Source: a bacterium A37T11 (GTDB lineage: Bacteria; Bacteroidota; Bacteroidia; Sphingobacteriales; Sphingobacteriaceae). Taken from it: a DNA stretch of 64,000 nt. Location: positions 1-64,000 of the forward strand of contig FOBR01000025.1 in NCBI GenBank assembly GCA_900109895.1. The letters run 5' to 3'. The position numbers were made by a program, and so were the translations under genes. The notes beneath the pieces are model-generated. The model was not told the origin of the DNA. It ran no database searches and saw nothing but the letters and a program-made list of their open reading frames with translations. Positions 40,231-61,592 of this stretch are shown here, in pieces; the first letter of the stretch is position 1; each line of letters starts with the position of its first letter.

Positions 40231-41406
40231 CTATTCAAAGTCGGTGTACAATAAATATTTCTTTCGCATTTGCTTGTATGCATCCAATTCAGGCTTCCAG
40301 GATGCCCTGATCTGCGACTCGCTAAGCCCTGACTTGATCTGTTCCTGTAGTTCCGCATTGCCTGCCAGCTTATTAAAGAATTCAGGCCGTGCAAAAAATT
40401 TCTTCTTGTCTGGAAATTTCCGATAAAAATCAAGCAAATATTTTAAGCTGAACTTCTCTTTGATAGCATCTGCCTGGCGAAGGTCAAGACCGTAGCAAAG
40501 ATTACCCTGTTGCTCCACATGGTCGGACATACCTGGTTTTTTGGTGGGAGTAAACGTGAAATTTCCAAAAACAGGATCTGGGTATCCCAGCACCTGAAAA
40601 GGCCAGTCAGTACCCCTGCCTACGCTAATGTCTGTGGCTTCAAACAGACACAGGGACATATACAGGCGAACCGACACATAGTTTGGCAAACTTGGCGAGG
40701 GTATGACCGGAAGCTGATACGGAGTGCTGTGATCCCAATTTTTTACTTTTATAACATCCAGATCGCATTTTCTCCCGGCTTTTAGCCAACCTTCACCATT
40801 GATCATCTGCGCGAGCTCACCGACGGTGAGCCCATGTATCATGGCTATTTTATGAAAACTTACATTACTTTTAAAGCGGTCATCTTTCCTTACCGGGCCG
40901 TCTACCTGGTCTCCGTTTGGGTTAGGCCTGTCAAGCACGATCATTTTTTTGCCATGGTCTGCACATAACTGCATGACCTGATGCATGGAGGCAATATAGG
41001 TGTAAAACCTGGCGCCTACATCTTGAAGGTCAAATAGTATGATATCGACTGAAGCCACGACAGAGTCGGCCTTTTTATTTTTACCATAGAGACTATAGAG
41101 GGGTAAACCTGTCTTTTTATCTATATCGTTGGAGACTTTCTCTCCTCGTTCAATGTTTCCCCTAAATCCATGCTCGGGAGCAAAGGCAAATTTGAGATCG
41201 ACACCATTTCTTAAAAGAACGTCTACCAAATGCTCACTACCAACAACGGAGGTCTGATTGCCCATAAGTCCCACTTTTTTGCCTTTTAATAAGGGCAAAT
41301 ATAATTCTTGCTGCTCCGCCCCTGTAAGAAGGCCTGCAGTACCTGTTCCCTTCGGTTGCGCGCAAGCTACCTGAACCAGCAAACAGATATATATCACAAG
41401 TTTCAT
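40231..41406 (-). CDS. namZ: Exo-beta-N-acetylmuramidase NamZ (DUF1343, GH171)
   Basis: 391 residues. NamZ enzymes release N-acetylmuramic acid from the non-reducing end of peptidoglycan fragments. A signal peptide with possible lipobox is visible (LVIYICLLVQVACAQPKG). Family blocks: KKVGLMGNQTSVV, LKFAFAPEHGFRGNIERGEK, LPLYSLYGKNKKAD, ILFDLQDVGARFYTYIAS, DRPNPNGDQVDGPVRKD, IPSPSLPNYVSVRLYMSLCL followed by FEATDISVGRGTDWPF, and the C-terminal PDKKKFFARPEFFNKLAG. Location is periplasm or outer membrane. It has its own promoter with the locus box at 41458-41470 and precedes murQ, whose route its product would enter. Confidence 0.93.
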   Translation of the reverse strand: MKLVIYICLLVQVACAQPKGTGTAGLLTGAEQQELYLPLLKGKKVGLMGNQTSVVGSEHLVDVLLRNGVDLKFAFAPEHGFRGNIERGEKVSNDIDKKTGLPLYSLYGKNKKADSVVASVDIILFDLQDVGARFYTYIASMHQVMQLCADHGKKMIVLDRPNPNGDQVDGPVRKDDRFKSNVSFHKIAMIHGLTVGELAQMINGEGWLKAGRKCDLDVIKVKNWDHSTPYQLPVIPSPSLPNYVSVRLYMSLCLFEATDISVGRGTDWPFQVLGYPDPVFGNFTFTPTKKPGMSDHVEQQGNLCYGLDLRQADAIKEKFSLKYLLDFYRKFPDKKKFFARPEFFNKLAGNAELQEQIKSGLSESQIRASWKPELDAYKQMRKKYLLYTDFE

Positions 41407-41430: not shown

Positions 41431-41470
41431 CAATTATAATTAAATATTCCAAAAAGTATGCATGTTTATG
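41431..41470 (-). promoter_or_regulatory. namZ promoter with salvage-locus box
   Basis: Minus-strand TATAATTG (41438 to 41431) is one base off TAnnTTTG. Nineteen nt upstream lies the box ATGCATGTTTATG (plus strand, 41458-41470), which differs in one base from the copies upstream of the S9 peptidase gene and in two from the copy upstream of susC. The box therefore covers the -33 region. The remaining part of the 166-bp gap shows nothing else. Confidence 0.5.
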
Positions 41471-41572
41471 TTAAAAATTTTAATATAATGAATAAAAACG
41501 CAATCTTGTACCCCTACACTATGCTTCATACAGGCACAATAACGCAAAAAAATGTTTAAATGAAAAATATGA

Positions 41573-42979
41573 TTAATTGATTGGAGGAACATGCCTCTCT
41601 TCAAGCGGAACAAATAATTTCTTCTGCTTATAATACCAGTAGACCGGTACGCCTGAAAAAATAAGCAGTAGACCAATTAAAGACTGCAAAGGGGTCTGGA
41701 TAACGGTCACCACCACCAGCGAAACACAAAAGAGGGCAAAAATGACTGGTAAAAATGGATATCCATTCAATTTGTAAGGCCGGGGTGCCTCAGGCGATTT
41801 GACGCGCATGATGATAACGCCCAATGCGGTAGCAGCATAAAAGATAAATGCTGCAAAAATAAGCAGGTCAGTGAGCTGATCAAAACTGCCCCACCATAAA
41901 AGCACCAACGCCCATACTCCCTGCATAAGGATCGCATTAAAAGGTGTTTGGTATTTGTGATGTATTTTGCCGGTACTTTTTAAAAAAAGGCCGTCACGGC
42001 TCATGGCATAAAAAATGCGGGAAGAGGTGAGAATGGTAGTATTGGTACAGTTAAATGTGCTTAGTAGGATAAGGGTAGATAGCACTATGGCACCGGCCGG
42101 GCCTGTAATGACACCTGCCACCTCTACTGCTGCGATCTTACTGGGCTCTTGGTTAATGGCAGCAAGGTCTTGAACTGGGAGTACATATAAATAGGCTGCA
42201 TTTACCGCAAGGTACAAAAACATAACGAACAGCGTTCCCGTGATCAGCGCGCGTGGGATATTTTTTTGGGGCTCTTTGACCTCTTCTCCTAAATACCCAA
42301 TGTTGTTCCACCCTTCATAGCCCCAAAAAGCACTTAATGATGCACCAAAGAAGGCTGTAAATAACGCCCATCCGGTAGGGGCCAGGGTAGATGGTGCAAA
42401 ATGTGCGGTTTCTCCTTTTTGTGAACCAAGTGCTGAAAATACAAATCCGATCATCACCAGAATGATCCCAATAATCAGGTAACGGCTCAAGTTGGCACTG
42501 AAGGTCACCCCCCGATAGTTGATGAAACTTAAAAAGAGCACTAACAGTGTGGCCAATACTTTAATAGCAAATGCACTATGATCTGCTCCGGCAGACAGAA
42601 AATCTGTTTGAGGCAAAGGAACCAATGCATTAAAAGATTGCGCAAAAATATAGGCTAATGCGGCTACAGTTGCCGATTTCATGACCGTAAGGTTCCCCCA
42701 ACCGTATAAAAAAGCAAAAAAACGGCCGTAGATCCGCTTAAAATACACGAATTCACCGCCTGAACCGGGCATCATGGAGGCCAACTCAGCCGTACAAAGT
42801 GCCCCTGCCAAACTCAACAGCCCTGCTACTGCCCAACATAGCAGGATAAACACAGGGGAATGAAGTGTTTCTGCCATCGGGGCGATTTTTTTAAAAACGC
42901 CTGATCCAACCACGGCACTGATGACCAAAAAAATAGCCGCAGAACGGGTTACACTTCTTTTAAGCGTGGTGTTCTCCAT
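41573..42979 (-). CDS. APC-family amino acid permease
   Basis: 468 residues with 12 membrane helices. The start RSAAIFLVISAVVGSGVFKK carries the unwound helix-1 GSG substrate motif of APC transporters; AELASMMPGSGGEFVYFKRI is the conserved helix-2/loop block, and FFGASLSAFWGYEGWNNIGY is helix 6. Relatives are LAT/SteT-like exchangers for neutral amino acids, cationic ones or small peptides. In this locus it could import amino acids released from the peptide stem. The substrate is inferred from context only. Confidence 0.85.
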   Translation of the reverse strand: MENTTLKRSVTRSAAIFLVISAVVGSGVFKKIAPMAETLHSPVFILLCWAVAGLLSLAGALCTAELASMMPGSGGEFVYFKRIYGRFFAFLYGWGNLTVMKSATVAALAYIFAQSFNALVPLPQTDFLSAGADHSAFAIKVLATLLVLFLSFINYRGVTFSANLSRYLIIGIILVMIGFVFSALGSQKGETAHFAPSTLAPTGWALFTAFFGASLSAFWGYEGWNNIGYLGEEVKEPQKNIPRALITGTLFVMFLYLAVNAAYLYVLPVQDLAAINQEPSKIAAVEVAGVITGPAGAIVLSTLILLSTFNCTNTTILTSSRIFYAMSRDGLFLKSTGKIHHKYQTPFNAILMQGVWALVLLWWGSFDQLTDLLIFAAFIFYAATALGVIIMRVKSPEAPRPYKLNGYPFLPVIFALFCVSLVVVTVIQTPLQSLIGLLLIFSGVPVYWYYKQKKLFVPLEERHVPPIN

Positions 42980-43049
42980 ATTTGTTTCCTTTTAGAAAAA
43001 TATCCTATTAAAATCTGTATAAAAATACTGGTTTAAATCAAAATTTCCT

Positions 43050-43089
43050 CAATTATAAAACTAATATTCCAATATAATAGGTGTATAGG
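43050..43089 (-). promoter_or_regulatory. Possible APC-permease promoter resembling the namZ promoter
   Basis: CAATTATAA at 43050 and ATATTCCAA about 5 nt further match the same two blocks, at almost the same spacing, in the namZ promoter (41431 onward). The equivalent of the ATGCATTTTTATG box is only weakly similar here. Minus-strand TATAATTG would be the -7 element. Confidence 0.3.
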
Positions 43090-43113
43090 AAATTTTTCTA
43101 AAAATTTAATGCA

Positions 43114-44178
43114 TCATAGCAATATTAAACCTAGACCAGCACGTTCATTGGGGATCAAATATCCATCCTCCAATGTAAACCCATCTTTTACGACATCTTC
43201 AGCCAGATCAAAGCTACCATCCAGGTCTATATACTGCGTATGTGCACAACTAAACGCTACGTGCAACGCTCCCGTAATGCTCACCATGCTCTCGTCGTTA
43301 CACCCCCAAAAAAGGGAAATATCGGCCTGTTTGGCAATATTAGCGATTTCCAGGGCGCCTGCAATACCTCCACATTTCATCAGCTTAATGTTAAAAATAC
43401 CGTAAGGCATGTCCTTTGCCAGGGCCAACGCCGATTTGGCGTTTTTCAACGACTCGTCTGCTGCCAGTAACCGACGGACAGGTTCCGGAAATTGCATCAA
43501 GTCGCTTTCCATACCGGGAGGGAACGGTTGCTCTACCAGTTCTACTTCCTGCCCAGCGGTTTGGTCTAAAAAAAGCTGCAATTTGGCGGCATCATAGCCT
43601 GTATTGGCGTCTACCCGGATACGAAAGTAATCATGATATTTTTCCCGTAACTTGATGATCCGCTCTGCGTCTTCTTCGGGATCAATGCCCGTTTTTACTT
43701 TCAGCACCTTAAAGCCGCTATCATAATATTCTTGAGCTTCTGCCAAGGTATCGACCACGTTTTTGATGCCTATGGTAACCGAAGTAAGCATTTTTTGATG
43801 TCTGCGGCCATAGAAATCGAGTACCGAAATTCCCAACCATTGGCCAAATGCATCGTGCAATGCCAAGTCGATAGCGGCTTGCGTGCCTGGGTGCTTAGGA
43901 AACTGTAATCTTATATCCTGGATTATTTTATTGAATTCTCGGATATCATGCCCTACCAATGATTGAACTATTTCTGAAGTGAGGTTGTTAATGGTATCTT
44001 CTGCGGATTCACCTACCACATCCACGTCGGTAGCCGATGAACCAAACCCTACCATGCCATTTGCCAGCTTAACCTCCAAAAATACGACCTCTGCATCAAA
44101 AAATGTATTCCGGGCTATGGTATAAGGTCTTTTAATAGCCAGTTTTTTCCGGTAGGCTTTTAGCTCTAGGATGTGCAT
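43114..44178 (-). CDS. Enolase-superfamily dipeptide epimerase (L-Ala-D/L-Glu type or DgcA-like)
   Basis: 354 residues. The muconate-lactonizing-type barrel shows the KxK base in GFKVLKVKTGIDPEEDAE, metal ligands in RIRVDANTGYD, VELVEQPFPP and LAADESLKNA, and the second lysine in FNIKLMKCGG. These are the L-Ala-D/L-Glu epimerase signatures; the enzyme inverts D-Glu in murein dipeptides. In marine bacteria a relative (DgcA) racemises N-acetyl-D-Glu together with a DUF1611 partner (DgcN); exactly such a DUF1611 gene overlaps here by 13 bp, so both readings are open. It has no signal peptide and is probably cytoplasmic. Confidence 0.9.
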   Translation of the reverse strand: MHILELKAYRKKLAIKRPYTIARNTFFDAEVVFLEVKLANGMVGFGSSATDVDVVGESAEDTINNLTSEIVQSLVGHDIREFNKIIQDIRLQFPKHPGTQAAIDLALHDAFGQWLGISVLDFYGRRHQKMLTSVTIGIKNVVDTLAEAQEYYDSGFKVLKVKTGIDPEEDAERIIKLREKYHDYFRIRVDANTGYDAAKLQLFLDQTAGQEVELVEQPFPPGMESDLMQFPEPVRRLLAADESLKNAKSALALAKDMPYGIFNIKLMKCGGIAGALEIANIAKQADISLFWGCNDESMVSITGALHVAFSCAHTQYIDLDGSFDLAEDVVKDGFTLEDGYLIPNERAGLGLILL

Positions 44179-45224
44179 TTTGTTTCTTTTAAGTTTTTAA
44201 GTACTGGTACCAGACGTTCGGCACCTTCCTGCAATGGCAGTATTACAGGGACTCCAAATTCCGTTTCGTAGGCTATTTTAAATTGCAGCATTTCATCAGG
44301 AGAGCAGTTTTCGGTATTTAGCGCAATGGCAATCACTTTAGCCCCAAATAATCCTATTAGTTGTATTTCTGATTCCAGTGAAGGAATTTTGCCCAGATGC
44401 TCCTCCTGGTCATAATAAATGCGTTTTGGTGCATGCACCAGTACGACATGTTTGGCCTGCCCGGAGATGATAAGCTCTGAACCGCAGGGGCCTGTCGGAT
44501 TGCGAAGTGCCGATTGGCCTTCCAAAAGGATCACATCGGGTGAGGTTTCCTTGTCACAAGTAAGAATGGCATTTTCCAGTTCACCGGACACAAAATCATT
44601 GAGTGTTGAATCAAATACGAATCCATATTGCCCACCCTGCAACCATCCCGTTTGGCCGGTATAAATCATCTGTGCATTTAGACCGGCTTCGGCACACGCA
44701 GCTAATACGATGCGTGTGGTGGTGCGCTTGCCTAACGAACAGTCGGTACCCAATACGGCAACGACGGGCGTCTTCATCTTCAAAATTTCGCCCGTCCAGA
44801 AATGGAGGTCTTCCCTCCTTTTCGGCCTTCGTATATCGATCAACGCGACCGATCGCTCTTCGGCCAAGGTCTTGATATCTGGGCGGTCATTCAGGTAGTC
44901 GTGCAAGCCGTTAACAATGGATACCCCATAATAAATGGCTGTACGCACTTCATCGAGCATCGAATCGGGAAACACACCACCAGAAGTAGCCACGCCGACT
45001 ACACAATATTCCGGATTTAACACCAGGGCATCTTCTATTGAAGCTACTACTGGTATGTTTCTGGTTTTCCCATCCAATACTTCACCTGCGTCCCGCCCGG
45101 CACTGACCGGATCTACGACAGCAATGACTTGAAACCTATTACTTTCCCTTATTAATCCATGTGCTGTCTTGGCATGGATTGTATCCAATAATCCTGCTGT
45201 TAATAATATTGCTGATTGCATCAT
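44166..45224 (-). CDS. DUF1611 P-loop protein (DgcN-like D-glutamate N-acetyltransferase candidate)
   Basis: 352 residues. The N-terminal half is a Rossmann-like domain (VIAVVDPVSAGRDAGEVLDG, VVGVATSGGVFPDSM). The C-terminal P-loop domain has VAVLGTDCSLGKRTTTRIVL (Walker A GTDCSLGKRT), MIYTGQTGWLQGGQYG and VILLEGQSALRNPTGPCGSE. This is DUF1611; characterised members (DgcN) N-acetylate D-glutamate before epimerisation by DgcA. Next to a dipeptide epimerase in a murein salvage operon, D-Glu processing is the natural inference. It overlaps both neighbours (ATGA with the upstream hydrolase gene, 13 bp with the epimerase). Confidence 0.82.
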   Translation of the reverse strand: MMQSAILLTAGLLDTIHAKTAHGLIRESNRFQVIAVVDPVSAGRDAGEVLDGKTRNIPVVASIEDALVLNPEYCVVGVATSGGVFPDSMLDEVRTAIYYGVSIVNGLHDYLNDRPDIKTLAEERSVALIDIRRPKRREDLHFWTGEILKMKTPVVAVLGTDCSLGKRTTTRIVLAACAEAGLNAQMIYTGQTGWLQGGQYGFVFDSTLNDFVSGELENAILTCDKETSPDVILLEGQSALRNPTGPCGSELIISGQAKHVVLVHAPKRIYYDQEEHLGKIPSLESEIQLIGLFGAKVIAIALNTENCSPDEMLQFKIAYETEFGVPVILPLQEGAERLVPVLKNLKETKCTS

Positions 45225-47638
45225 TTACCTTTTATATATTCATAGAAAAACTCTGAGATCAGAGATAATGGTTTTTTAGCTTGCTCCACCGGAACATCAC
45301 CAGACAAAAGTACCAATACATATTTTCGTCCATCTGGCAGGTACACAATGCCTGAATCATGGCAAATAAGCGGAAGCCCGCCTGTTTTATGGGCTACCTT
45401 TACATTGGCTGGTAAGCGCGCTGGTATGACACTTTTAAAATATTGATTTTTCAGAATCGCTATCATCGCATCACTTGATTGCTTATTAACCAAGGTACCT
45501 TGTGCCATTTTTTCAAAAATAAGCATCAAATCATATGCCGTAGTAGTGTTATTCAATCCCTTTTCATACGCTTTACTATCCTCTACGCCTCTTAAAACTT
45601 TGATATCTTTAGCCCCGATCCCTTTCATCATTTTCATCACATTTTTTGCGCCTACTAAATTAACCAAATTATTTGTTGCCAGATTGCTGCTACGGGTAAT
45701 CATTCGCTGCAAAAGGTCATCTATGGTAGTTTTTTTTCCAATGAGCTTATACAACGCCTGTTCACTGTCGTTTAAAGGATATTGGGAATATTTACTTCCA
45801 TCAACGATACTTTTGAAAAGATTTATAACAGTCACTGAATCACTTATGGAAAACTTACCTTTATCAGCCTGTTCGAATACTTCGGCCATGACGGGTGTTT
45901 TCATCGTACTAGCGGCGTGAAAACTATCTTTTTCATTCAGAAAAAACGTTTCGCCTGTCTGCAGATCCTTATATGCAACTGCAAAGTGGCCTTTCGGAAA
46001 TTTAGCCGTTTGTGCTAAAATCCTTTTCCTGAGTGTTGTAGTATCTAAAATAGCCATTGGATTGGGGGTAGGTAACAACCGCTCAAATTCATTGTCGGCA
46101 CCGTTAAAATTACTAATAAATCGGATCTCACGGATGGTATGGTCCGGGTTTACGATAAAATTAACATAGGGGGCATCACCCATGTTAGGCACCTGATAGT
46201 GCTGCACAAATAGGTCGCCCTGAAAGTGGGTCAAATAACCGTCGTATTTAGGTGCCTTCGGAAAGCGCATGTAAAGCCCTTTTTCTTTTAAATCGACAAT
46301 TACGTCCCCAATCAACGGTTCGGTGTATGCACCAGTATATTTTTCCAGAGGCAAAGACATCCGCAGCGTAGAGTCTGGCTTGATCTGACTACGCCTTCTG
46401 CTAGTTGAATCGCTTGCGGCCAAGTCTTTGTCGTATGACTTTTTATATCCGCTCACCCAATCAAAGGCTGGAACTCCCAAGTTATAATCAACTATGTGAT
46501 TAATAATGCTCCAAAACGCTTCGCCTGACAATTGATTGGTCAACACCACAACTCCCAGCTTTAGTTCAGGAAGCATGGCTATCTGCGACACGAAACCTGT
46601 CAATAATCCTCCATGGCCGACAACCTGGTGCCCACGGTAATCGTAGGTTCTGAAGCCGAGGGCGTAGCCTGAAAAATTACGCTGATTGGGTGCTAACCAA
46701 ACCGGCTCCTTGGTGATGGGCATGGGCCGTATGATCTTCCAAAGTTGCTTAGTCGCATCAGGGGTAAAAATCCGCCCATGTTCAGGCGTCATGCCCGAAT
46801 CAAGTTGCGTAATAAGCCACTTGGACATGTCCAGGGCGGAGGAAGAAATGCCACCTGCCGGATCACCGACGTCTCCAATATTCAGGTCGTAAAAATTGTC
46901 GATTGATTTCAATTGTCCTTTTCTCCTGGCATGCGCAACTGCAAAATTGGGTTGGTCCTTGAGCGTAGAATACCGGCTAACGCTGTTTTTCATCCCCACA
47001 ACATCAAAAATGCGGGTTTTTACAAAATCTTCCCATTCCATTCCAGATACTTTTTTGATGATCTCTCCTGCTGCCAAATACAAAATATTGTCGTAGGCAT
47101 AAACTGTTCGAAAATCGTATTGTAGGGGAATATCTTTCAGCTTGCGAAGTAATTCTTCACGTGTATACAAGGAGGGTGGAAATAATAGCAGGTCATTGAC
47201 GTAGGACGGCAAGCCACTCTGGTGTACCAGTAAGTCACGTACGGTAAGATGCATGGTCACATAATCGTCAGACATGCGGAACCACGGAAGGTGCTCAATC
47301 ACTTTGTCTTCCCAATTGAGCTTACCTTCTTCTACCAACATAGCCAGCGATGTTGACGTAAATGCTTTGGTATTGGAAGCAATATTAAACAGGGTGTTCT
47401 CATCCACCTTTTCCGGACTTCCAAGTTTTTTGATGCCATAGCCTTTTGCCAGCCAGATTTTGCCATCTTTGACAATACCCACCGCTATACCCGGCACTTG
47501 AAATTTTTCAAGTACTTCCTGCAAATAGCTATCCATATCTGGAGGAATTATTTTATCTGCCTGTGCAGTTGCTCCTTGCATCCACATAAGGCAAGCAATG
47601 ACAATGACAAAACACCTATTTACTTTGTATCTATTCAT
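45221..47638 (-). CDS. Two-headed serine hydrolase: class C-like plus class A beta-lactamase-like domains
   Basis: 805 residues with signal peptide (CFVIVIACLMWMQGATAQA). Residues about 35-390 are a class C/esterase-type domain: SxxK is SNTK (88-91), YDN (182-184), and HGG (342-344) in place of KTG. A lipocalin-like DUF3471 region follows (about 425-520). Residues about 530-805 are class A-like: STMK (577-580), SSN (650-652, the SDN loop), EKGLN (692-696, matching Glu166/Asn170) and KTG (751-753). All catalytic positions of both types are present in one chain. In this operon it likely cuts murein stem peptides (DD-peptidase/endopeptidase) or inactivates beta-lactams; sequence does not decide. 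It starts 12 bp after the S9 gene. Confidence 0.88.
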   Translation of the reverse strand: MNRYKVNRCFVIVIACLMWMQGATAQADKIIPPDMDSYLQEVLEKFQVPGIAVGIVKDGKIWLAKGYGIKKLGSPEKVDENTLFNIASNTKAFTSTSLAMLVEEGKLNWEDKVIEHLPWFRMSDDYVTMHLTVRDLLVHQSGLPSYVNDLLLFPPSLYTREELLRKLKDIPLQYDFRTVYAYDNILYLAAGEIIKKVSGMEWEDFVKTRIFDVVGMKNSVSRYSTLKDQPNFAVAHARRKGQLKSIDNFYDLNIGDVGDPAGGISSSALDMSKWLITQLDSGMTPEHGRIFTPDATKQLWKIIRPMPITKEPVWLAPNQRNFSGYALGFRTYDYRGHQVVGHGGLLTGFVSQIAMLPELKLGVVVLTNQLSGEAFWSIINHIVDYNLGVPAFDWVSGYKKSYDKDLAASDSTSRRRSQIKPDSTLRMSLPLEKYTGAYTEPLIGDVIVDLKEKGLYMRFPKAPKYDGYLTHFQGDLFVQHYQVPNMGDAPYVNFIVNPDHTIREIRFISNFNGADNEFERLLPTPNPMAILDTTTLRKRILAQTAKFPKGHFAVAYKDLQTGETFFLNEKDSFHAASTMKTPVMAEVFEQADKGKFSISDSVTVINLFKSIVDGSKYSQYPLNDSEQALYKLIGKKTTIDDLLQRMITRSSNLATNNLVNLVGAKNVMKMMKGIGAKDIKVLRGVEDSKAYEKGLNNTTTAYDLMLIFEKMAQGTLVNKQSSDAMIAILKNQYFKSVIPARLPANVKVAHKTGGLPLICHDSGIVYLPDGRKYVLVLLSGDVPVEQAKKPLSLISEFFYEYIKGK

Positions 47639-47650
47639 TAACTTTTTACG

Positions 47651-49759
47651 TTAAATTATTTTTTTTAAGAGTTTTTTTTCCAGGAAATCAGCGATGGCCT
47701 GATCGACCATGACCTGATGCTCGTATTTAAGCCAATGATGCGTTTCATCGGGCACCATCAATGTTTCAATGTCCACTTGTTTTTTGCCAAGTCGATTCAG
47801 CAGGTCGATCGTCTCGTGAAAATCCACGTTTCCATCGTCGTCGCCGTGGATAAATAATACGGGCGACGTCCAGCTATCTACATAGGAAACCGGAGAGGAT
47901 TCTTTGGCCAACCTGATCGCCAGATCTTTGTCGGGAGCTGGTTCGGCGCTCAGGACAGAAACCCGGCCCATGAAATTATGAACGCCGTGCACATCCACGC
48001 CGGCAGCAAACAGTCTGGAATCCCGGCCCAAGGCCAAGGCCGTCAAAAACCCGCCATAAGATCCTCCGTATACGCCTATCCTACCCGCGTCAACCTGCGG
48101 CTGTGCCGCCAGCCATTCGCCAGCAGCTTTGACATCCAGGTATTCAGATGCGCCGTAACGACCGGCTGCAGGTGGATTGTGAAATTCAGTGCCGTAGCCG
48201 ATGCCCAGCCGATAGTTCACGGACAGGACCACAAAGCCTCTGCTAACGAGGTATTGATTGAGCGCATAGGTATTGGAATAATAATCTCCGTAGTTCCAGC
48301 CCAGCAGCATTTGCCGAGAGGGCCCTCCGTGAATAAAGAGCACCGCCGGCTTTTTGGATAGCCCCTCTTTCGGTTCAAAAAGTTGCCCATAAACCGTTCC
48401 CCCGTCTGCTGCTTTGAATTCCACGCGTGTAGGAACCACCTGTGGCGTTTTAGCCAGTGTTTCAGGTATCAGCTTTCGGCCGATCAGATCCAGCTTTTTG
48501 TCACCGGATAAATTCAGGATGGCCGGAATACCCGGCTGCACAGCCGTCGCGCTGACCAAGGCCAGGCGCTGCCCGTCACCGGTAAATACCGGAAAAGTTT
48601 CCAGGCCTGAGCCGGGCGTCAATACCTTCAACTTTGCTTTATCAACCGGCACGCTTACAATGTGCCGCCTGTCTATATCGTCCTTATCGGGACCGGTATT
48701 GGCACTGAACACCAGCGTGCATTTATCGGGGCTAAGCCCGATGTGCTCGGCCATAAAATGCCCCGGCGTCAATAAAAGCGGTTGGCCACCTTCTGCAGGC
48801 ATGCTGTACAAATGTGGCCAGCCGTCCAGGTTAGACAAAAACACGATCCGGTCCTTTGCCGCCCAGTGAAGGTTGAAGCTTCCATTCGTATTGGGAATTG
48901 ATCCGCGCAGGTTGACGGGAGACTTCCAGCGCTCCTTCGCCTCTCCAGTACTCAAGTCGGCAATCCAAATAGCCCAGGGATCTGGCTGGTCTACGGTAAG
49001 CGAATCGGGTGCCCCCCCGGAAGGCCGCATGCGGATAAACGCCAGCTTCTTCCCATCGGGAGACCAGCGTGGCGATGCATCCCGGCTAAACGTTGGTGCA
49101 ATCCACCGGATAGGTGTTTGTTCATCCCGGTAAATGCCGATGAGCGCATGATCTTTTCGTGAAGATACAAAAACGAGCTGCGATCCGTCGGGAGACCATT
49201 TTGGCGAACTATTTTGCCCTTTTGCAAAAAATAGCCGTTTTGCTTTTTGCGAGCCATCAACCGGCGCCCGCCATATTTGTCCCTGTTCCGCAAAAACTAC
49301 CGTCTTCCCATCGGGCGATAACACCGGATAATCGCCATCAGCCAGCAACACAGGAGTACCCCCGGCAAAAGGAATGCTCCAGATTTGGACTTTTGGTTCT
49401 AAGGGTAAAGATGAGGGGTTTCTGGGTACACTTTCATCATAAGCACCATGGTCGCCCCCTTTTACATAGACCACCCGCTGACCGTCAAAAGACAGGCAAA
49501 CACTTGTGATCTCATCGCCGTTGTCCTGATCATATGCGGTCAACTTCCGCAATTGAAAATCGGGGCCTTCCGCAACGTAAATATTCCGCTTGCCCCGCTC
49601 ATTAATCGCCAAGGCAATCCTGGAGCCGGTGGCTGCTGAAGTCAGTTCGGAAGGAAATGGATAAGATGTGATCGTCTCCATATCCAACGATTGCGCATAC
49701 AATAGATTGAATGAAAATAGCAGCCATATAAATGCAATGAAAATTCTATTGCCGAACAT
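47651..49759 (-). CDS. Secreted prolyl-oligopeptidase-family (S9) peptidase
   Basis: 702 residues from ATG 49759, chosen for its signal peptide (IFIAFIWLLFSFNLLYAQS); the frame extends to ATG 49792 and GTG 49801. The N-terminal part is a TolB/PD40 propeller (APKWSPDGSQLVFVSS, ASPRWSPDGKKLAFIR). The C-terminal hydrolase domain has nucleophile Ser in GVYGGSYGGFLTAL (about 581 of the longest frame), Asp in FIHGDDDGNVDF and His in VPDETHHWLKY. S9 enzymes of this type remove dipeptides or acyl-amino acids from short peptides. In this operon it may trim murein stem peptides in the periplasm. The promoter carries the salvage box. Confidence 0.9.
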   Translation of the reverse strand: MFGNRIFIAFIWLLFSFNLLYAQSLDMETITSYPFPSELTSAATGSRIALAINERGKRNIYVAEGPDFQLRKLTAYDQDNGDEITSVCLSFDGQRVVYVKGGDHGAYDESVPRNPSSLPLEPKVQIWSIPFAGGTPVLLADGDYPVLSPDGKTVVFAEQGQIWRAPVDGSQKAKRLFFAKGQNSSPKWSPDGSQLVFVSSRKDHALIGIYRDEQTPIRWIAPTFSRDASPRWSPDGKKLAFIRMRPSGGAPDSLTVDQPDPWAIWIADLSTGEAKERWKSPVNLRGSIPNTNGSFNLHWAAKDRIVFLSNLDGWPHLYSMPAEGGQPLLLTPGHFMAEHIGLSPDKCTLVFSANTGPDKDDIDRRHIVSVPVDKAKLKVLTPGSGLETFPVFTGDGQRLALVSATAVQPGIPAILNLSGDKKLDLIGRKLIPETLAKTPQVVPTRVEFKAADGGTVYGQLFEPKEGLSKKPAVLFIHGGPSRQMLLGWNYGDYYSNTYALNQYLVSRGFVVLSVNYRLGIGYGTEFHNPPAAGRYGASEYLDVKAAGEWLAAQPQVDAGRIGVYGGSYGGFLTALALGRDSRLFAAGVDVHGVHNFMGRVSVLSAEPAPDKDLAIRLAKESSPVSYVDSWTSPVLFIHGDDDGNVDFHETIDLLNRLGKKQVDIETLMVPDETHHWLKYEHQVMVDQAIADFLEKKLLKKII

Positions 49760-49829
49760 TGTTAACAAGATTAAATTCGCGACACATATCATCCGGTACA
49801 CTCGGCAACAGATGCTATGATTGGAGGTA

Positions 49830-49903
49830 CAATTTTAAGAAAAAAATTTTGAATTAGATGCATTTTTATGAGTTATTTTTATTAAATAGGAATAAAAATG
49901 CAT
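49830..49903 (-). promoter_or_regulatory. S9-operon promoter with two facing salvage boxes
   Basis: Minus-strand TAAAATTG (49837 to 49830) is one base off TAnnTTTG. Twenty nt upstream begins ATGCATTTTTATG (plus strand, 49858-49870), and its inverted copy ATAAAAATGCAT lies at 49892-49903, a perfect 12-bp inverted repeat with 22 bp between the arms. A third copy (49951-49963) lies in the hairpin after susD. Same box and spacing as the susC and namZ promoters. Confidence 0.6.
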
Positions 49904-49940
49904 TTAACTATCCATAAATATTAATAATATCAAATTTTAA

Positions 49941-49976
49941 CCAGCAAACAATGCATTTTTATGCACTTTTTGCTGG
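49941..49976 (-). terminator. Long stem-loop after susD
   Basis: CCAGCAAA (49941-49948) pairs with TTTGCTGG (49969-49976). Inside, TGCAT and ATGCA pair around an A/T tetraloop, giving about 15 pairs with one mismatch. It starts 8 bp after the susD stop on the transcript and is not followed by a long U-run. It may end most susCD transcripts, or protect the susCD mRNA while the S9 operon uses its own promoter. The inner stem contains a copy of the salvage box. Confidence 0.5.
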
Positions 49977-49983
49977 TTACATC

Positions 49984-51420
49984 TTATTGATCCCACCAAA
50001 GCGGCGAATCGAGCGAAAATTCGGGTGGTACATTGCTGCCATTCTCATTCCGCTCATCGGCCGGATAAGCAATCCTCCTGATAAAATTGGGAAGATAAGA
50101 CGATGCACCTACTGGCATTTGGAAATCTTTGTATTCATAATCGTGGCGTCTCATATCGTTCCACGCTTCCGGGCTTAAGTAAGTCACTACGTATTTTTCT
50201 TTAAAGATTAGGTCCAGTGTTAAATTTGATGACCCTACAGCCACCATTGGATTCTTCATATAAGCGTCCCTGTCGGCAGTGGCGACACCGAGCTTATCCA
50301 TATTTGACTTAATACCGGCTAGATAAGCGGTATAGGCCCGAAACTTGTCACCAGCCCTGAATGCTGCTTCAGCCTCAATCAATTTGAGCTCGGCAAAAGT
50401 CAAAATATAAATCGGTGCTGTTTTATTGGTTAAAATACTATTCAGGCTAATATAACATTCATCGTGTATGGTATTGGCTGCACCCACATTTCCCTGGCCG
50501 TTTCGGGTACCGACATAATCACCATTTACTGTCTTGTCGGTAATCTTTGAAATCCTGGGATCAACGATACCATACTTCGTACCGTTTAGATGATTGATGA
50601 AATTATCCGAAAGCCACCCCCCCAGCAATTGGTTATTATTGTCAATGGCCAATTGGGCCCAAGGATTGTTCCCGTCGAATAAACCCATCTTCGCCTCATC
50701 GGCTTCGGATGCATAAGAGCTTTCAAGGGCACTCAGCACCGAATTTGGGTCGTAGGATGATTTCTTTGATACCTTATTCAGAAAACGGGATTTGATTCCA
50801 TAGGCCGTTTTGATCCAGGCAGCTTTCTTTCCCTGATGGATCAAGTCATTGGCGGAATCTAATGTGACCGTTGCATCCGTCTTGTTCAATAACGCTATAC
50901 TTTCATCGATCAATTTGAGCGAGGTTTGGTACAGCGATTCTTCTGAGTCAAATGCCGGTGTCAATACTTTAGAAGCTCCCAATGCTTCCGAATAGGGAGC
51001 ACTGCCCCAAGTATCTGCCACGAACCCCAACTGATAGGCCAAAAGAAGTTCGCCAACCGCCTGATGATCTGTGGCACCAAGCTCCTTAGCCTTGTTGATC
51101 ATATCATACAGATCTGACATTGCATAATACACGTTATTCCATTGTGAGGAATTGTCTGTAATCTGGTAAGTATCGGAAGCGGCACCTGCCGTAGGGCTTG
51201 CCGTGTATTGCACGTAGGGTGCATCAAGCGCACCAAAACGCTGTGTATTAAGCCCGGCTTTCTGCGTAGCCGTAGAAAGCAGTGCATTGATAGGAGGATT
51301 TTGCACAAGGTTTGGATTATCGTTCAGGTCAAAATAATCTCCGCATCCCTGCAGAAGCAATGGGGCTATGATCGCGTAAACAATTTTTATTAAATTAGCA
51401 CGTATTTTCATGATCGTCAT
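49984..51420 (-). CDS. SusD-like lipoprotein (SusD_2 type) of the salvage locus
   Basis: 478 residues; start at residue 1 or at MKIRANLIKIVYAIIAPLLL (residue 4). The lipobox is LLLQGCGDYF. Conserved blocks of the smaller SusD_2 group: YDMINKAKELGATDHQAVGE, LLAYQLGFVADTWGSAPYSE, NDLIHQGKKAAWIKTAYGIK, APIYILTFAELKLIEAEAAF and FKEKYVVTYLSPEAWNDMRR. The group is often linked to peptide or non-starch cargo. With the SusC 2 bp upstream it would capture fragments at the surface; the downstream genes point to muropeptides. A strong stem-loop follows the stop. Confidence 0.9.
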   Translation of the reverse strand: MTIMKIRANLIKIVYAIIAPLLLQGCGDYFDLNDNPNLVQNPPINALLSTATQKAGLNTQRFGALDAPYVQYTASPTAGAASDTYQITDNSSQWNNVYYAMSDLYDMINKAKELGATDHQAVGELLLAYQLGFVADTWGSAPYSEALGASKVLTPAFDSEESLYQTSLKLIDESIALLNKTDATVTLDSANDLIHQGKKAAWIKTAYGIKSRFLNKVSKKSSYDPNSVLSALESSYASEADEAKMGLFDGNNPWAQLAIDNNNQLLGGWLSDNFINHLNGTKYGIVDPRISKITDKTVNGDYVGTRNGQGNVGAANTIHDECYISLNSILTNKTAPIYILTFAELKLIEAEAAFRAGDKFRAYTAYLAGIKSNMDKLGVATADRDAYMKNPMVAVGSSNLTLDLIFKEKYVVTYLSPEAWNDMRRHDYEYKDFQMPVGASSYLPNFIRRIAYPADERNENGSNVPPEFSLDSPLWWDQ

Positions 51421-51422
51421 TC

Positions 51423-54400
51423 TTAGAAGCCAACATTAAGGGTAAACAAAAAACTACGCACCGCCGGGTAGGTCATCCCGGAAAAAGCATCCACGTTGGA
51501 CCCACTATTGGTAGTGGTACTTTCTGGATCAAAGCCCGTGTAACCGGTCCATAGAAACAAATTATTGCCGGTTACCGAAACCTGCACTTTTTTAAAAAAA
51601 CTGCTTTTTATCCAGCTATTCGGAAAGGTGTAACCAATAGATGCAGAACGTAAACGAAACCATGATGCGTCTTCCACGAATTTTTCCGAGTTCCCTCGGT
51701 CAATTAACCGATAATACCCGTCGCCATAATTCCGACCTGTCGACGGATCCACACCCTGCCCAAGCCAAACCTCTTTAGTATTGGTGGTGCCATCAGCCAA
51801 TACTCCTTCAAATACCTTGTGGTCGTTCCGGTTTTCAGTACTTTTAGCGATTCCGAAAGCCGAATAGAAGTTAGCCAATTGATTGTAGCGATCCTGTCCT
51901 ACCTGAGCATCAAACAAAATGGAAAAAGACCATTGTTTATACGTAATGGAATTCATCCAACCGCCAATCCAATCTGGTTGCGTATTACCCAATTTCTTGG
52001 TATCGGCCACATTTTCCAATATTGGAAAACCATCCGCACTGATCAAAAGGGGCCTTTTTTTGTCTATCTCCTTTCCCTTATCCAAGCCTGCTTTAATTTC
52101 ATCTTCTGTATAATACCGTTTAAATGCCCTTCCATAAAGCTCCCCGTAGGGTTCTCCCGGAATCAGGATCATCGACACATTTGAGCTCAAATATCCAAAC
52201 TCGGAACCTGCCGTGATCTGTTTCAAGTCTGGTCTCAACGACACAACCTTATTACGGTTTGCTGAAAAATTTAAGGTCGTTTCCCACGTAAAATCCGGAG
52301 ACTTTAAGAGTGATGCGTTCACCGTTAACTCAATACCCTGATTACGAAGGCTCCCAGCGTTTACAGCTGCTGTTACATATCCGATGGTAGAAGATACCGG
52401 AATTTTTATTATCTGGTCCTTACTCAACGAATGGTAATAATTGGCATCAAAGCCCAAACGGCCTTTAAAAAAAGTCATGCTCAGGCCTGCTTCATAGGTA
52501 TCCGTAAATTCAGGTTTCAGCGCCGGGTCACCAAGCAATTTTGGTCTTGTGAAACCAGTATAACCCGTGGGCAACCCCGTATACGCGGCAAATCCTGTAC
52601 TGGTGGAATAAGGATCCGCGTCTTTTCCTATCCGGGCGTATGAAAAGCGCACTTTTGTATTGCTAATTACCTCTGGAAGGTGAACATGGTCTGAGAGAAT
52701 GTAACTCAGACTGGCCGAGGGATAAAAGAACGAATTATTAGGACTTAAAAGGGAGGAGGTGACGTCGTTTCTGCCGGTTATGGTGAGGTACAGATAATCC
52801 TTGTAATTAAGTGACAACTCGCCAAAAACACCCATTAACCGATATTTTTCCATATAGGTACTGGCTTCCAGGAATTTTGCATTCTGCAGTTCAAACCAAT
52901 CATAAATGGTTAAGTTAGAACCATCAGTTCCATCCTGCGTGATGTTGCGGTCGTATAGCTCGTGACCTAATCTTAATGTTCCTGAAAAATCATTTGAAAA
53001 TTTATGATCTGCACTTACAATGAAGGTACTGTTTAGGGTGCGGAATTTGTTGCTATACACATTGATGATCCCATAACCCGGATATTGAAGAGACCCATTG
53101 TCGCCTACCTTTAGTTCCCCTACCAGATCCTGAAACCCCGGTGCGGTATTCCGTCGGTTATCCCGATACGCATCCAAACCAAGGCGATATGAGAAATTGA
53201 GCCATTTGAGCGGCTGATATGAGAAATTCACATTTCCCAGCATGCGCAGCACATCATCCCTAAATAAATTTGTTTCCGCCACATAACGCGGATTAGTGGT
53301 CGTACCATAGGTACGCATTGTGTTGTTTTCATTGATGTAATCATTGATATCATGCCGGGGAGACCAGTAGGTGAGTTCTTCAATGTATCGCCCTGCATTA
53401 CTACGGTTTCCTCCTGAATTTGTCACGTTCAGGCTAGCTCCTGCTGTGAATTTTTCACTCGGTTTGTACGTGGTATTTATCCGTCCCTGATAATTTTTAA
53501 AATCAGACGCAGGCATCACCCCATTTTGATTTAGTTGCGATAGCGATGACAAAAAGTTCATCTTTTCGGATCCACCGGAAAACGTCAAGTTATTCCGGTA
53601 CTGGTTGCCCGTTTGGAATGCGTTTGACATTTTATATAAATGAGCAGGATGAGTGGGATCCAGCGCTTTGGCTTCCTCGACCGTAGGTCCCCAGGAGGGC
53701 CAAAAACTATTCGGATCGTATTCTCCATGCCACCCTTGCGAATAGATATCCTGCACTTCTGGATATTTATTCACGTTTTCAAAACCTGCTATCCCCTGAT
53801 AATTGATCTGTACCGATCCAGATTTACCTGACTTTGTAGTGATCACAACAACCCCATTAGCACCACGCAGTCCATACAGAGCAGTGGCTGCACCACCTCT
53901 TAAAATATTTATAGAGGCAATATCTTCTGGATTAATATCCACCGCACGATTACTCATTCCGCGACCAGAAGCACCTGTACCCTGAATCGAAGTATTGTTA
54001 TCCATTAATAACCCGTCGATGACAAACAAAGGCTGATTTGCCTTTTCGGGATCTATTGAATTTATTCCACGTATTTGTATCCTTGTACCCTGTCCGGGTG
54101 CTCCACCGGTACTACTGATGGTGACACCCGCAATTTTGCCCTGCATGGCATTTAAAACATTCGGCTGTTTATTTGCATTTAGGTCTGCAGAAGAAACTGT
54201 TTGGGCTGTGTAACCCAGCGATCGCTCCTGCCGCTTAATACCCAATGCTGTCACCACTACTTCATCTAAATTAGAAGCTGCTTTTTTAAGGACTGCATTT
54301 ATTATACTTCCATTATTAACTGGCACCCTCAGAGTTTCCATCCCAACAAAAGTAAATACCAAGGTCGCCCCTGAACTGGCAGTAATGCTATAGTGCCCGG

Positions 54401-54572
54401 AAGCATCGGTTTGTACTGCTGAACTTGTGCCCTGAACGGAAACTGTTACGCCTGGTAATGCCTTTCCTTCGTTAATATCGGTAACCGTGCCGGAAACCGA
54501 TCTTTGCTGAGAGCGGGCGCTAAACATTAAAAACACCATCCCAAAGACTAAGCTGTACAATTTTCTACCCAT
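51423..54572 (-). CDS. SusC/RagA-type TonB-dependent transporter of the salvage locus
   Basis: 1049 residues. Signal peptide (LVFGMVFLMFSARSQQ), a carboxypeptidase-regulatory-like domain (VSGTVTDINEGKALPGVTVS), the TonB box/plug region (VVVTALGIKRQERSLGY, IQIRGINSIDPEKANQPLFV, NRAVDINPEDIASINILRGG) and a long barrel ending FTLNVGF. Unlike the 15.2-18.7 kb SusC it has no STN domain and no FecR/sigma pair, so it is regulated otherwise. Its promoter (54683-54723) has the salvage box. Expected cargo is a muropeptide or murein oligosaccharide, inferred from the operon content downstream. Confidence 0.93.
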   Translation of the reverse strand: MGRKLYSLVFGMVFLMFSARSQQRSVSGTVTDINEGKALPGVTVSVQGTSSAVQTDASGHYSITASSGATLVFTFVGMETLRVPVNNGSIINAVLKKAASNLDEVVVTALGIKRQERSLGYTAQTVSSADLNANKQPNVLNAMQGKIAGVTISSTGGAPGQGTRIQIRGINSIDPEKANQPLFVIDGLLMDNNTSIQGTGASGRGMSNRAVDINPEDIASINILRGGAATALYGLRGANGVVVITTKSGKSGSVQINYQGIAGFENVNKYPEVQDIYSQGWHGEYDPNSFWPSWGPTVEEAKALDPTHPAHLYKMSNAFQTGNQYRNNLTFSGGSEKMNFLSSLSQLNQNGVMPASDFKNYQGRINTTYKPSEKFTAGASLNVTNSGGNRSNAGRYIEELTYWSPRHDINDYINENNTMRTYGTTTNPRYVAETNLFRDDVLRMLGNVNFSYQPLKWLNFSYRLGLDAYRDNRRNTAPGFQDLVGELKVGDNGSLQYPGYGIINVYSNKFRTLNSTFIVSADHKFSNDFSGTLRLGHELYDRNITQDGTDGSNLTIYDWFELQNAKFLEASTYMEKYRLMGVFGELSLNYKDYLYLTITGRNDVTSSLLSPNNSFFYPSASLSYILSDHVHLPEVISNTKVRFSYARIGKDADPYSTSTGFAAYTGLPTGYTGFTRPKLLGDPALKPEFTDTYEAGLSMTFFKGRLGFDANYYHSLSKDQIIKIPVSSTIGYVTAAVNAGSLRNQGIELTVNASLLKSPDFTWETTLNFSANRNKVVSLRPDLKQITAGSEFGYLSSNVSMILIPGEPYGELYGRAFKRYYTEDEIKAGLDKGKEIDKKRPLLISADGFPILENVADTKKLGNTQPDWIGGWMNSITYKQWSFSILFDAQVGQDRYNQLANFYSAFGIAKSTENRNDHKVFEGVLADGTTNTKEVWLGQGVDPSTGRNYGDGYYRLIDRGNSEKFVEDASWFRLRSASIGYTFPNSWIKSSFFKKVQVSVTGNNLFLWTGYTGFDPESTTTNSGSNVDAFSGMTYPAVRSFLFTLNVGF

Positions 54573-55094
54573 AACTATTTATAAATTTTAATTAAAAAAC
54601 AATTTATTAAAATAAAATCGTAAATAACATCTGTTTAAACTTACTTTTTATCAATAAATAAGATATATTATAAAAATTATTACAAATTTAATTAAAATAT
54701 TTTTAACTATTTGCATTTTTATGAATAATTAATAACAAAAAACGATAAATTATGCATTATATACATCATATATGCAATTTTCATGTTAAATTTAGGCTTA
54801 ATTAATAATAAAATGCATAAAACAGCAAATTAGGTATCCATCAGAAAATTTCTGGCACTTTTATCGTTGAAATTATTGCTTTAGAATATACATCCGGGAA
54901 CTTACATGGATGAGCGACATTACCGCATCAATGGTAGTACGTGGCTCTTATTAATTGGATTATCCAGCAAATCCAGTATGTTAAATTCACAAATTATGTT
55001 TGCTACCGTTGAGGGAGCAAATACATGAACCGACTAACCTGTAGCTGGCTTATTATTTATCATAAATTTCTTCTTCCCGCGAAAATTCCTGTGG
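54573..55094. other. 522-bp A/T-rich intergenic region
   Basis: Apart from the susC promoter and the scattered ATGCAT-type elements between 54711 and 54818, I see no gene here. The part next to susC (54573-54830) is extremely A/T-rich; the part next to the GH43 gene (54830-55094) has more average composition. It contains one 40-codon plus-strand frame (54906-55028) without recognisable features. No hairpin terminator for the GH43 operon was found. Confidence 0.6.
54683..54723 (-). promoter_or_regulatory. susC promoter with salvage-locus box
   Basis: Minus-strand TAAATTTG (54690 to 54683) is an exact TAnnTTTG match. Twenty nt upstream lies TTGCATTTTTATG (plus strand, 54711-54723). A facing near-copy ATAAAATGCAT is at 54808-54818 and TATGCATTAT at 54751. 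The predicted leader is about 100 nt. Box and spacing match the S9 and namZ promoters. Confidence 0.6.
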
Positions 55095-56183
55095 CTAAGG
55101 TGTTGTATTGTTAAAATTAGGAGCTGACTGAAGTGTACTACTCGGCTTTTTATCTTTGATGACAGGCCAGTCATTCTCCCAAGTAAGTTTATCAAGCATC
55201 AAAGCCCGCAGGGTTGTGCCGTTCGCTAATTTTGGATTGGCAATCGATATGGCATGGTATAAAAACCAATCTGTGCCCTTGTCATCCGTTACAATATGTG
55301 CGTTATGCCCAGGGCCAACAAATGAATTACCACCATCTATCAAGATCGTTCCGTTGCCGTTTTGGGCAATATCATTACCAGCCTTATCTAAATATGGACC
55401 TTTAAGACTACCCGAACGCGCTACCATAACGTGATAGGTACTCCCGGCCCCATCGCAACATCCTCCCTTGGATCCGAAAAAATAATAGTAGCCCCTACGT
55501 TTATAGATCATGGGGGCTTCGAAATCGCCTGCGGCAATCTTAAATTTGCTTGAAGGAATGATACTAAGACCGTCACTAACTAGCTGCACACCGTGAATTC
55601 CCTGAGTCGATGCCGTGCTAAAACTACCCCAGATCAGGTATCGCACGCCATCGTCTTCAAAAATTGTTGGGTCGATCGAGTTTGGAACTCCGATACTTTG
55701 TGTGTCAAATAATTTTCCCTGGTCCTGAAATGGCCCTTCGGGTTTATCCGAAAGGGCTACCCCTATACCAGGATTAGTATCTCCCCAAGTGGAAAGGGCA
55801 TAGTATAAGTAATATTTGCTATTAAAATAATTAATGTCAGGCGCCCAAATACCTCCGCTCGTTTTCCAACTTGGACGAGTTGCAAATGCATTTCCCACAA
55901 CACTCCAGGTTATCAGGTCTTTTGATTTAATAACTGGAACCAATCGTGACCCTTTACCATCACCCCAATCATCCTGTGTGCCATAGGCATAAAACGTATC
56001 TCCAGCCTTTATCACACTTGGATCAGCAAGAATAGGCTGAAAAACAGGATTTTTATAGGTTAAGCCCGTAATAACGGGCTCATCACTTCCTTCAGCTGTG
56101 TCTTTTATTGGATTATCTCCCCCACCCTTCCCACAGGATACTAAAAAAATTACACACAAAAACTTTTTTGAAAATAATATCAT
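55095..56183 (-). CDS. Glycoside hydrolase family 43 lipoprotein (arabinanase/arabinofuranosidase-like)
   Basis: 362 residues. Lipobox FLVSCGKGGG (Cys 17) predicts a surface or periplasmic lipoprotein. The five-bladed propeller carries the three GH43 acids: Asp 54 in ILADPSVIKAG, Asp 171 in SIDPTIFEDDG, and Glu 222 in GDFEAPMIYKRRGYYYFFGS. IWAPDINYFNSKYYLYYALS and the metal-contact His in GPGHNAHIVTDDKG are also typical. GH43 enzymes of this layout hydrolyse alpha-L-arabinofuranosyl or beta-xylosyl links. It is the last gene of an operon otherwise aimed at phosphodiesters, so the target is likely a furanose-bearing side chain; not proven. Confidence 0.9.
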   Translation of the reverse strand: MILFSKKFLCVIFLVSCGKGGGDNPIKDTAEGSDEPVITGLTYKNPVFQPILADPSVIKAGDTFYAYGTQDDWGDGKGSRLVPVIKSKDLITWSVVGNAFATRPSWKTSGGIWAPDINYFNSKYYLYYALSTWGDTNPGIGVALSDKPEGPFQDQGKLFDTQSIGVPNSIDPTIFEDDGVRYLIWGSFSTASTQGIHGVQLVSDGLSIIPSSKFKIAAGDFEAPMIYKRRGYYYFFGSKGGCCDGAGSTYHVMVARSGSLKGPYLDKAGNDIAQNGNGTILIDGGNSFVGPGHNAHIVTDDKGTDWFLYHAISIANPKLANGTTLRALMLDKLTWENDWPVIKDKKPSSTLQSAPNFNNTTP

Positions 56184-56231
56184 AATTGAATCTGCTAAAT
56201 TTATTTTTGTAAAAAAATGAACTAAGGTTAC

Positions 56232-57215
56232 CTACTTACTATATCGTTCTTTTAGTACTATACCTAATCCATCACCAACAGCACGTTCTGAACCATCGGA
56301 TGGCTTATTTTGTATGACCCATTGGGCTATTTCTTTTTTTCTTAAAGCTAAAGTAGTAGATCCGCCGCCATCCATATTAATAGCCATATAGGTATTTAAT
56401 GCATAAAAAATATCCTGAAGATCTGCAACTGTAGTCCCCATAGACCAACCCATCTGCCTTCCATCTATGACCAGCGCATACAACACCCTGTCATCGGTAT
56501 AACCTATGGCGGTTCGCGGGTGTTCATCCAACTCCAAGCTTGTAGTAGCCAAAAGTGCTCGCTTATGGTCAATGATTAACCGCTCATTGCCTCCAACTGC
56601 TTGCTGTAAACGTGTAAAATCGACGTCCATTTCTTTTCCATCCAACCCCAGCCCACCCAGCACCAGGGTACCATCCGGATACGTACCTACAAAAGTCCTG
56701 GCCTTGGTATCCCTCGTCTCTTTCAGAACAACTCCATCCACCACCAGTACACTTTGCGGCTCTCCGGTGGTTAAATTAAAAAAATCTCCATTGATAGCAG
56801 CCAGAATTTTTGTGCCTGCCTTTTCGTTGGAGGCAGCCATTTGGGTAATGGGCTGCCTCCCAAACTTTTTTTCACCAAAAGGAACAAGCGCTTGAAGCCC
56901 CAAACCTGTCTGTTTTAGGTCTACCTTAAGGATAAGCATTTTCATGCGCGAACCGCTCTTCTTGATGAAATCAATACGAGTCTCTTGTAACCCATTGGTT
57001 ATTTGAATAACTGTATCCGATAAAAAATCTTTTATAAAATCTGTTTTGTGAAAAATAATTTTTGTTAGTTCACTGGTATCGGGCTTTTCCTGTAGAGGAG
57101 TACCACCGGAGTTCACATCGTTTACTGCACCATCGCTTTTCGCACAATAAGCAAAACTTATGATAATATAAAACAACAAGCTCGCTAGCTTCAGTCCGTA
57201 AAATAACCTTTCCAT
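56232..57215 (-). CDS. Phosphodiester glycosidase lipoprotein (NAGPA-like domain)
   Basis: 327 residues. The leader LLFYIIISFAYC ends at a lipobox Cys. The NAGPA/DUF2233 domain shows ILAAINGDFFNLTTGEP, HPRTAIGYTDDRVLYALVID, MAINMDGGGSTTLALR and ERAVGDGLGIVL, the conserved Asp/Gly-rich blocks. The mammalian enzyme removes GlcNAc from GlcNAc-1-phospho-mannose; bacterial relatives cleave sugar-1-phosphodiesters of wall or capsular glycans. It starts 2 bp after the SusE-like gene, in one operon with a PLD-like protein, so two phosphodiester-directed proteins sit side by side. Confidence 0.88.
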   Translation of the reverse strand: MERLFYGLKLASLLFYIIISFAYCAKSDGAVNDVNSGGTPLQEKPDTSELTKIIFHKTDFIKDFLSDTVIQITNGLQETRIDFIKKSGSRMKMLILKVDLKQTGLGLQALVPFGEKKFGRQPITQMAASNEKAGTKILAAINGDFFNLTTGEPQSVLVVDGVVLKETRDTKARTFVGTYPDGTLVLGGLGLDGKEMDVDFTRLQQAVGGNERLIIDHKRALLATTSLELDEHPRTAIGYTDDRVLYALVIDGRQMGWSMGTTVADLQDIFYALNTYMAINMDGGGSTTLALRKKEIAQWVIQNKPSDGSERAVGDGLGIVLKERYSK

Positions 57216-57217
57216 AT

Positions 57218-58525: not shown

Positions 58526-58554
58526 ATTGTGACTTTTTAAATATTTTAAACCTT

Positions 58555-61582: not shown

Positions 61583-61592
61583 TTCCCTCAAA

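Follow-up and report, generated by a model that had tools for sequence, protein, structure and literature searches.

In Escherichia coli and other bacteria, murQ and the use of MurNAc are regulated by MurR, and the substrate of MurQ is MurNAc-6-phosphate. MurR belongs to the RpiR/SIS-domain family, whereas the candidate regulator described below is of the DeoR family. For the Bacteroidota, the literature searches brought up a single regulator of muropeptide salvage, the GppX protein of Tannerella forsythia, which controls muropeptide and MurNAc salvage through the ampG operon and murTKQ (PMC5388701). GppX is a hybrid two-component activator with an AraC-like DNA-binding domain (PMC5388701), in contrast to the one-component DeoR-type protein that is the candidate here; as the salvage regulator of Tannerella is GppX, control there differs. 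A parallel in form is offered by the DeoR-family RhaR regulons, for which direct repeats of 10–11 bp are the reported motif form (PMC3870299). Like these, the regulon predicted here is sugar-catabolic, with two imperfect direct repeats at a 10–11 bp period and a DeoR-type regulator. It differs from them in concerning murein rather than rhamnose, in being based on YGCA boxes and in carrying an added facing box 33–34 bp upstream, with an outer length of 44–45 bp. As predicted from the DNA, the regulon is new but belongs to a known kind.

The window, which is the whole 64,000-nucleotide stretch of A37T11 DNA that was analysed, contains a locus whose genes, as assigned with Pfam, are a murein-fragment salvage set. 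One operon is headed by namZ, coding for an exo-beta-N-acetylmuramidase (40231..41406, minus strand), and includes genes for a murQ-type etherase (a SIS protein; 39264-40088, minus strand) and an SSF symporter (37774-39264, minus strand). A second operon is headed by an S9 peptidase gene (47651..49801, minus strand), and the rest of it (41573-47638) encodes a double beta-lactamase-fold protein, a DUF1611 protein, an MR_MLE racemase-type enzyme and an amino acid permease. The locus also encodes a SusC-type TonB receptor (51423..54572, minus strand) and a SusD-like protein (49984-51420). The double beta-lactamase-fold protein (45221-47638) combines a class C-type beta-lactamase-fold domain, DUF3471 and a second beta-lactamase-type domain (PF00144 and PF13354) in one polypeptide, and is kept in relatives (L231 684-3104). 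At 43114-45224, DUF1611 adjoins the MR_MLE enolase-superfamily enzyme, and this pair likely handles D-glutamate or L-Ala-D-Glu murein-peptide products. The initial annotation had stated that no regulator gene lies in the locus, and the Pfam scan agrees: neither a one-component regulator nor, beside murQ, a regulator combining an RpiR-type HTH with a SIS domain was found among the scanned ORFs.

A shared 13-bp box had been reported at 41458, 49858 and 54711, lying 19, 20 and 20 nt from the -7 elements of namZ, the S9 operon and susC respectively; all three boxes are present and the distances hold. The -7 elements, supported by the sequence and by a genome-wide pattern search, are TATAATTG for namZ (41431..41438, minus strand, 19 nt below the operator described below), TAAAATTG for the S9 operon (49830..49837, minus strand, 20 nt below) and TAAATTTG for susC (54683..54690, minus strand, 20 nt below). 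A clear TTTG at -33 is absent from these promoters, and the proximal box occupies the position of the -33 element. With at most one mismatch, the box TGCATTTTTATG occurs seven times in the window against 1.25 expected, a count reached in 0 of 100 shuffles. With three mismatches it occurs 51 times against 50 expected, and the signal is therefore confined to the tight form of the box.

The whole genome, 5,092,396 bases in 60 contigs, contains six exact copies of the box, three of which lie in the salvage locus. Two of the other three are inside long coding frames (hisD-like and GH5-like), and the last falls within what looks like the part of a TonB-type gene that codes for the signal peptide. 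When the box was required to be followed 16–23 nt on by TAnnWTTG, five places were found genome-wide and none with the reversed pattern used as a control. Among the five, the full TGCA box is present only at the three promoters of the salvage locus, the other two having GCT instead of GCA. The box had been expected to recur at random A/T-rich sites with no link to salvage genes if the initial reading were wrong, and the genome-wide search did not show such a scatter.

The 13-bp box is the promoter-proximal half of a larger operator, TGC...GCA, of 44–45 bp, with a facing arm 33–34 bp upstream of the box at all three promoters. The operator of the namZ-murQ-SSF operon (41459..41502, minus strand) reads TGCGTTTTTAT-N22-ATAAACATGCA and spans 44 bp, its arms being 33 bp apart. 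That of the S9 peptidase operon (49859..49902, minus strand) reads TGCATTTTTAT-N22-ATAAAAATGCA, also over 44 bp. The proximal operator of susC (54712..54756, minus strand) reads TGCATAATTTAT...ATAAAAATGCA over 45 bp, with a looser distal arm. A possible second, upstream susC dyad, TGCATTTTATTA...CATGAAAATTGCA, was read directly in the sequence at 54773..54817 (minus strand, 45 bp). Of the two facing copies noticed earlier, the one at 49892 stands (49891-49903), and the one at 54808 is present but is part of this second dyad. Facing arms additional to those are found at namZ (41491-41503) and, in the looser form ending at 54756, at susC.

A genome-wide search for TGCRTTTTTAT-N22-ATAAAAAYGCA with up to three mismatches returned two places, the S9 promoter without mismatch and the namZ promoter with one; the reversed control returned one. 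The strict dyad with spacers of 15–40 and no mismatches again gave S9 and namZ only, against none in the control. Downstream of susD, a strong terminator-like hairpin (49938..49979, minus strand; -24 kcal/mol, z = -6) carries a further exact copy of the box at its tip (49951-49963). This copy was set aside and probably belongs to a terminator, not to an operator. The hairpin, situated between susD and the S9 operon, might also be terminator and operator both.

Promoter regions of 57 genes were collected from S9 and susC orthologues in relatives of the same family, which gene content and family size suggest to be Sphingobacteriaceae. The pattern TGC-N38/39-GC[AT]-N17-21-TAnn(W)TTG matched six of the 57, against 0.24 expected from shuffles, namely the namZ, S9 and susC promoters of A37T11 and the susC promoters in G072, G062 and G015, three genomes that belong to a different genus (g16). 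The outer length of 44–45 bp was the sole one enriched in these regions, all other lengths from 26 to 75 bp giving 0–1 match each. Because the inner sequence differs between promoters, it is the geometry of the operator that is kept. The pattern AANAYGCA-N17-21-TANN(N)TTG matched eight times in 445 kb of fetched sequence, each time in a salvage locus. In genus g4, the equivalent site precedes genes of the NamZ and SusC types and has a proximal box that is repeated in tandem at a 10-bp interval (e.g. ATGCATAAACATGCAT and ATGCAAAAACATGCAT), and the operon heads downstream of such sites encode N-acetylmuramoyl-L-alanine amidases, NagA-type proteins and NamZ proteins. This doubling of the proximal box (YGCA-N6-YGCA) is frequent in relatives. 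Direct repeats of 10–11 bp are clear in the g4 sites and in the g16 murQ sites, and are degenerate in the namZ, S9 and susC arms of A37T11. By these sequence criteria, the operator is conserved in at least three genera. When the strict dyad pattern was applied family-wide, six of 400 genomes gave matches, which is close to what the reversed pattern gave as a control, the G062 susC promoter excepted. In the susC promoters of genus g14 (L156-L171), TGC-N7-TGC is repeated in tandem and a TTTTRTGCGTGTTTTTRT block is conserved directly above TATATTGCA; this arrangement probably represents the operator after drift, in another orientation.

Two operator models were applied to whole genomes, and their E-values are rough. 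R1, a sequence-only model from 15 sites whose training set contained no murQ promoters, was run on 13 genomes and then on 16 more outside training. It placed matches 31–51 bp upstream of murQ in seven genomes (G062, G072, G015, G051, G036, G205 and G227), and R2, a second model built without any A37T11 site, added murQ sites in G016 and G332. In A37T11 itself, R1 found the three known sites (25.1 bits at namZ and 24.8 bits at the proximal susC operator) and one new strong site at C29:204061-204108. R2 scored the S9 operator at 18.7 bits, its best match in the window, gave the namZ operator 9.1 bits and missed that of susC; the namZ and susC sites of A37T11 consequently rest on the genome-wide pattern search and on their geometry. 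The new site has the same layout of 44 bp, then 20 nt, then TATTATTG, and was scored at 26.7 bits by R2. It precedes a SusC-type gene that follows Amidase_3 and NlpC/P60 genes in an amidase/NlpC/beta-lactamase cluster. With this site on contig C29, the predicted regulon has four members or more. The surrounding murein cluster, the second in this genome (L229 3912-10436), encodes a beta-lactamase fold, a DeoR regulator, NlpC/P60, Amidase_3 and, near the contig end, a SusC-type protein. Few or no R1 matches were obtained in genera with more distant orthologues of this DeoR protein (g14, 57%; g21; g19), in which the motif has perhaps drifted.

A candidate regulator was indicated by G062, in which a site is flanked by a SusC/SusD operon and by a divergent gene of the DeoR family, whose product combines HTH_DeoR with DeoRC, a sugar-phosphate sensor domain. 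Sites near the DeoR gene are also found in G072 and G051. Orthologues of this gene are present in 23 of the 24 genomes examined. The one exception, G086, which is the sole DeoR-negative control, has namZ-murQ-SSF and lacks both the DeoR orthologue and the site. In seven relatives the gene lies 2.9, 4.4, 5.5, 11.5, 15.9, 21.4 and 21.4 kb from murQ, and in an eighth 50 kb. No regulator was seen among the ten neighbouring ORFs scanned in the relatives' loci. The A37T11 orthologue is encoded outside the window at C29:198914-199654, is 81% identical, and has both PF08220 and PF00455 above cut-off. Its gene is about 4.4 kb from the fourth operator; the adjoining gene encodes a beta-lactamase fold and is preceded, at 51 bp, by a weak site. 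The HTH region NVSEDTIRRDL is nearly invariant among the 11 DeoR orthologues compared. NCBIfam places the A37T11 protein among GlpR/AgaR-type DeoR regulators, below every named cut-off (best, GlpR_Halo, 157 of 300 bits). Identity with a specific named DeoR protein (GlpR, AgaR, UlaR, SrlR and others) is not supported, as no NCBIfam match reaches its curated cut-off. A phmmer search at E <= 0.001 found no PDB relative of the A37T11 protein.

The factor encoded at C29:198914-199654 probably reads the operator and controls a dispersed murein-salvage regulon, a judgement that covers both the DeoR identity and the regulon and overlaps with the activating variant weighed below. The operator, its conservation, its murein context and its linkage to the DeoR gene come directly from the computation; that the A37T11 protein binds the operator, we infer. 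The earlier proposal of a single regulator acting from elsewhere gains support from an operator present in at least three genera, from the dispersal of the murein-salvage regulon and from a DeoR candidate on another contig. The operator would be built from YGCA boxes and A/T tracts, with either a single box or a 10-bp tandem of two next to the -33 region. A facing YGCA box would lie about three helical turns upstream, the outer length being 44–45 bp and the operator ending 17–20 nt above the -7 element. Being three turns away, this distal box may allow cooperative binding of two units on one face of the DNA. This distal arm is not part of the reported DeoR motif form, which counts against a DeoR factor. 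The A37T11 regulon would include susCD, the S9/beta-lactamase-fold/DUF1611/racemase/permease operon, the namZ-murQ-symporter operon and the second SusC-type gene on C29.

A repressor would hide the -33 region, and an activator would stand in for the -33 element. The factor, probably a sensor of an amino-sugar phosphate, may act mainly as a repressor that covers the -33 region and is released by such a ligand, e.g. MurNAc-6-phosphate or GlcNAc-6-phosphate, the ligand being a pathway guess from the action of MurQ on MurNAc-6-phosphate. Repression lifted in this way is somewhat favoured over activation on the family prior, as most characterised DeoR/DeoRC proteins repress. The activating variant has the same DeoR factor and differs in the sign of control only: the proximal box would substitute for the missing -33 element and recruit RNA polymerase. 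This is a tentative possibility. The lack of a clear TTTG at -33 means that activation would fit too, the distance to the -7 element is fixed at 17–20 nt in the A37T11, g16 and g4 promoters, and the NCBIfam model of a DeoR-type L-fucose operon activator scores close to the repressor models, all below cut-off. The family habit of repression speaks against it, as do the murQ promoter sites, which do not have the same obvious -7 spacing. Bolder, and doubtful, is the suggestion that a DeoR-type sensor of a murein amino-sugar phosphate is the family's master switch for murein salvage, activating through a three- or four-box operator, with tandem boxes at -33 and a facing one three turns upstream, at promoters without a -33 element.

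The spacing of the arms initially favoured an AraC/XylS-family dimer, RhaR/RhaS-like, activating from two inverted half-sites 33–34 bp apart with the proximal one at -33/-35. The A37T11 operators do show this arrangement, and the E. coli RhaS/RhaR system is alike in it: RhaR binds a pair of inverted half-sites, each of 17 bp and separated by another 17 bp, which puts them 34 bp apart (PMC3870299), and half-site 2 of RhaS coincides in part with the -35 region (PMC12858550). The XylS site TGCA-N6-GGNTA is an equivalent 10-bp two-box form (PMC4514859), at least 49 HTH_18 genes are present in the A37T11 genome, and the murein regulator GppX itself has an AraC-like domain (PMC5388701). Set against this, TGCA forms the outer ends of the dyad here, whereas the GGCA/GTCA ends of RhaS sites face inward (PMC12858550), and the Bacteroides AraC motifs surveyed are 21-bp direct repeats (PMC3870299). 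Also, no AraC gene stands beside the sites in the Pfam-scanned loci, where a DeoR gene is found in several genomes. The model was demoted because the boxes are tandem 10-bp direct repeats of identical boxes, a further difference from RhaS/RhaR, and because the linked gene is a DeoR gene; an AraC-type factor is now considered unlikely. An amino-acid-responsive octamer of the Lrp/AsnC type, bound to imperfect palindromes TGCATnnnnATGCA three turns apart, is very unlikely. Some copies are palindromic (49951; L063 14019), the spacing is about three helical turns and the locus handles peptide and amino acid products, but the operators do not keep the inner half of the palindrome, relatives have 10-bp direct repeats and the linked gene is again DeoR. 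Least probable of all is chance likeness of A/T-rich promoters, or the spread of copies by duplication within the locus. The intergenic DNA is indeed very A/T-rich and the three-mismatch box is at background, but the confinement seen genome-wide, the outer length kept while the inner sequence changed, and the murQ matches in genomes outside training speak against it, and the whole-genome searches largely refute it.

A pattern spotted by eye thereby becomes a regulon that can be tested and for which a candidate regulator is named. If the DeoR assignment is true, DeoR-type control of NamZ, MurQ, SusCD and beta-lactamase-fold enzymes would tie murein fragments from outside both to a sugar-phosphate signal and to beta-lactamase-related enzymes. 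In these genomes, the operator model may in addition serve as a tool for finding more genes of murein use whose function is unknown.

Elsewhere in the window, away from the salvage locus, an ECF sigma factor/FecR anti-sigma pair is encoded at 18868-20634, and the large ORF below it (15170-18685), presumed to be a SusC-type receptor, points to a separate uptake system. A histidine kinase (23252-24475) is likewise located away from the locus. The box searches show no operator box near an LD-carboxypeptidase gene (S66) at 27748-28686. A second SusC/SusD-type cluster at 55095-63887, with GH43, a phosphodiester glycosidase (NAGPA) and a PLD-like protein, suggests the use of a phosphate-containing polymer.
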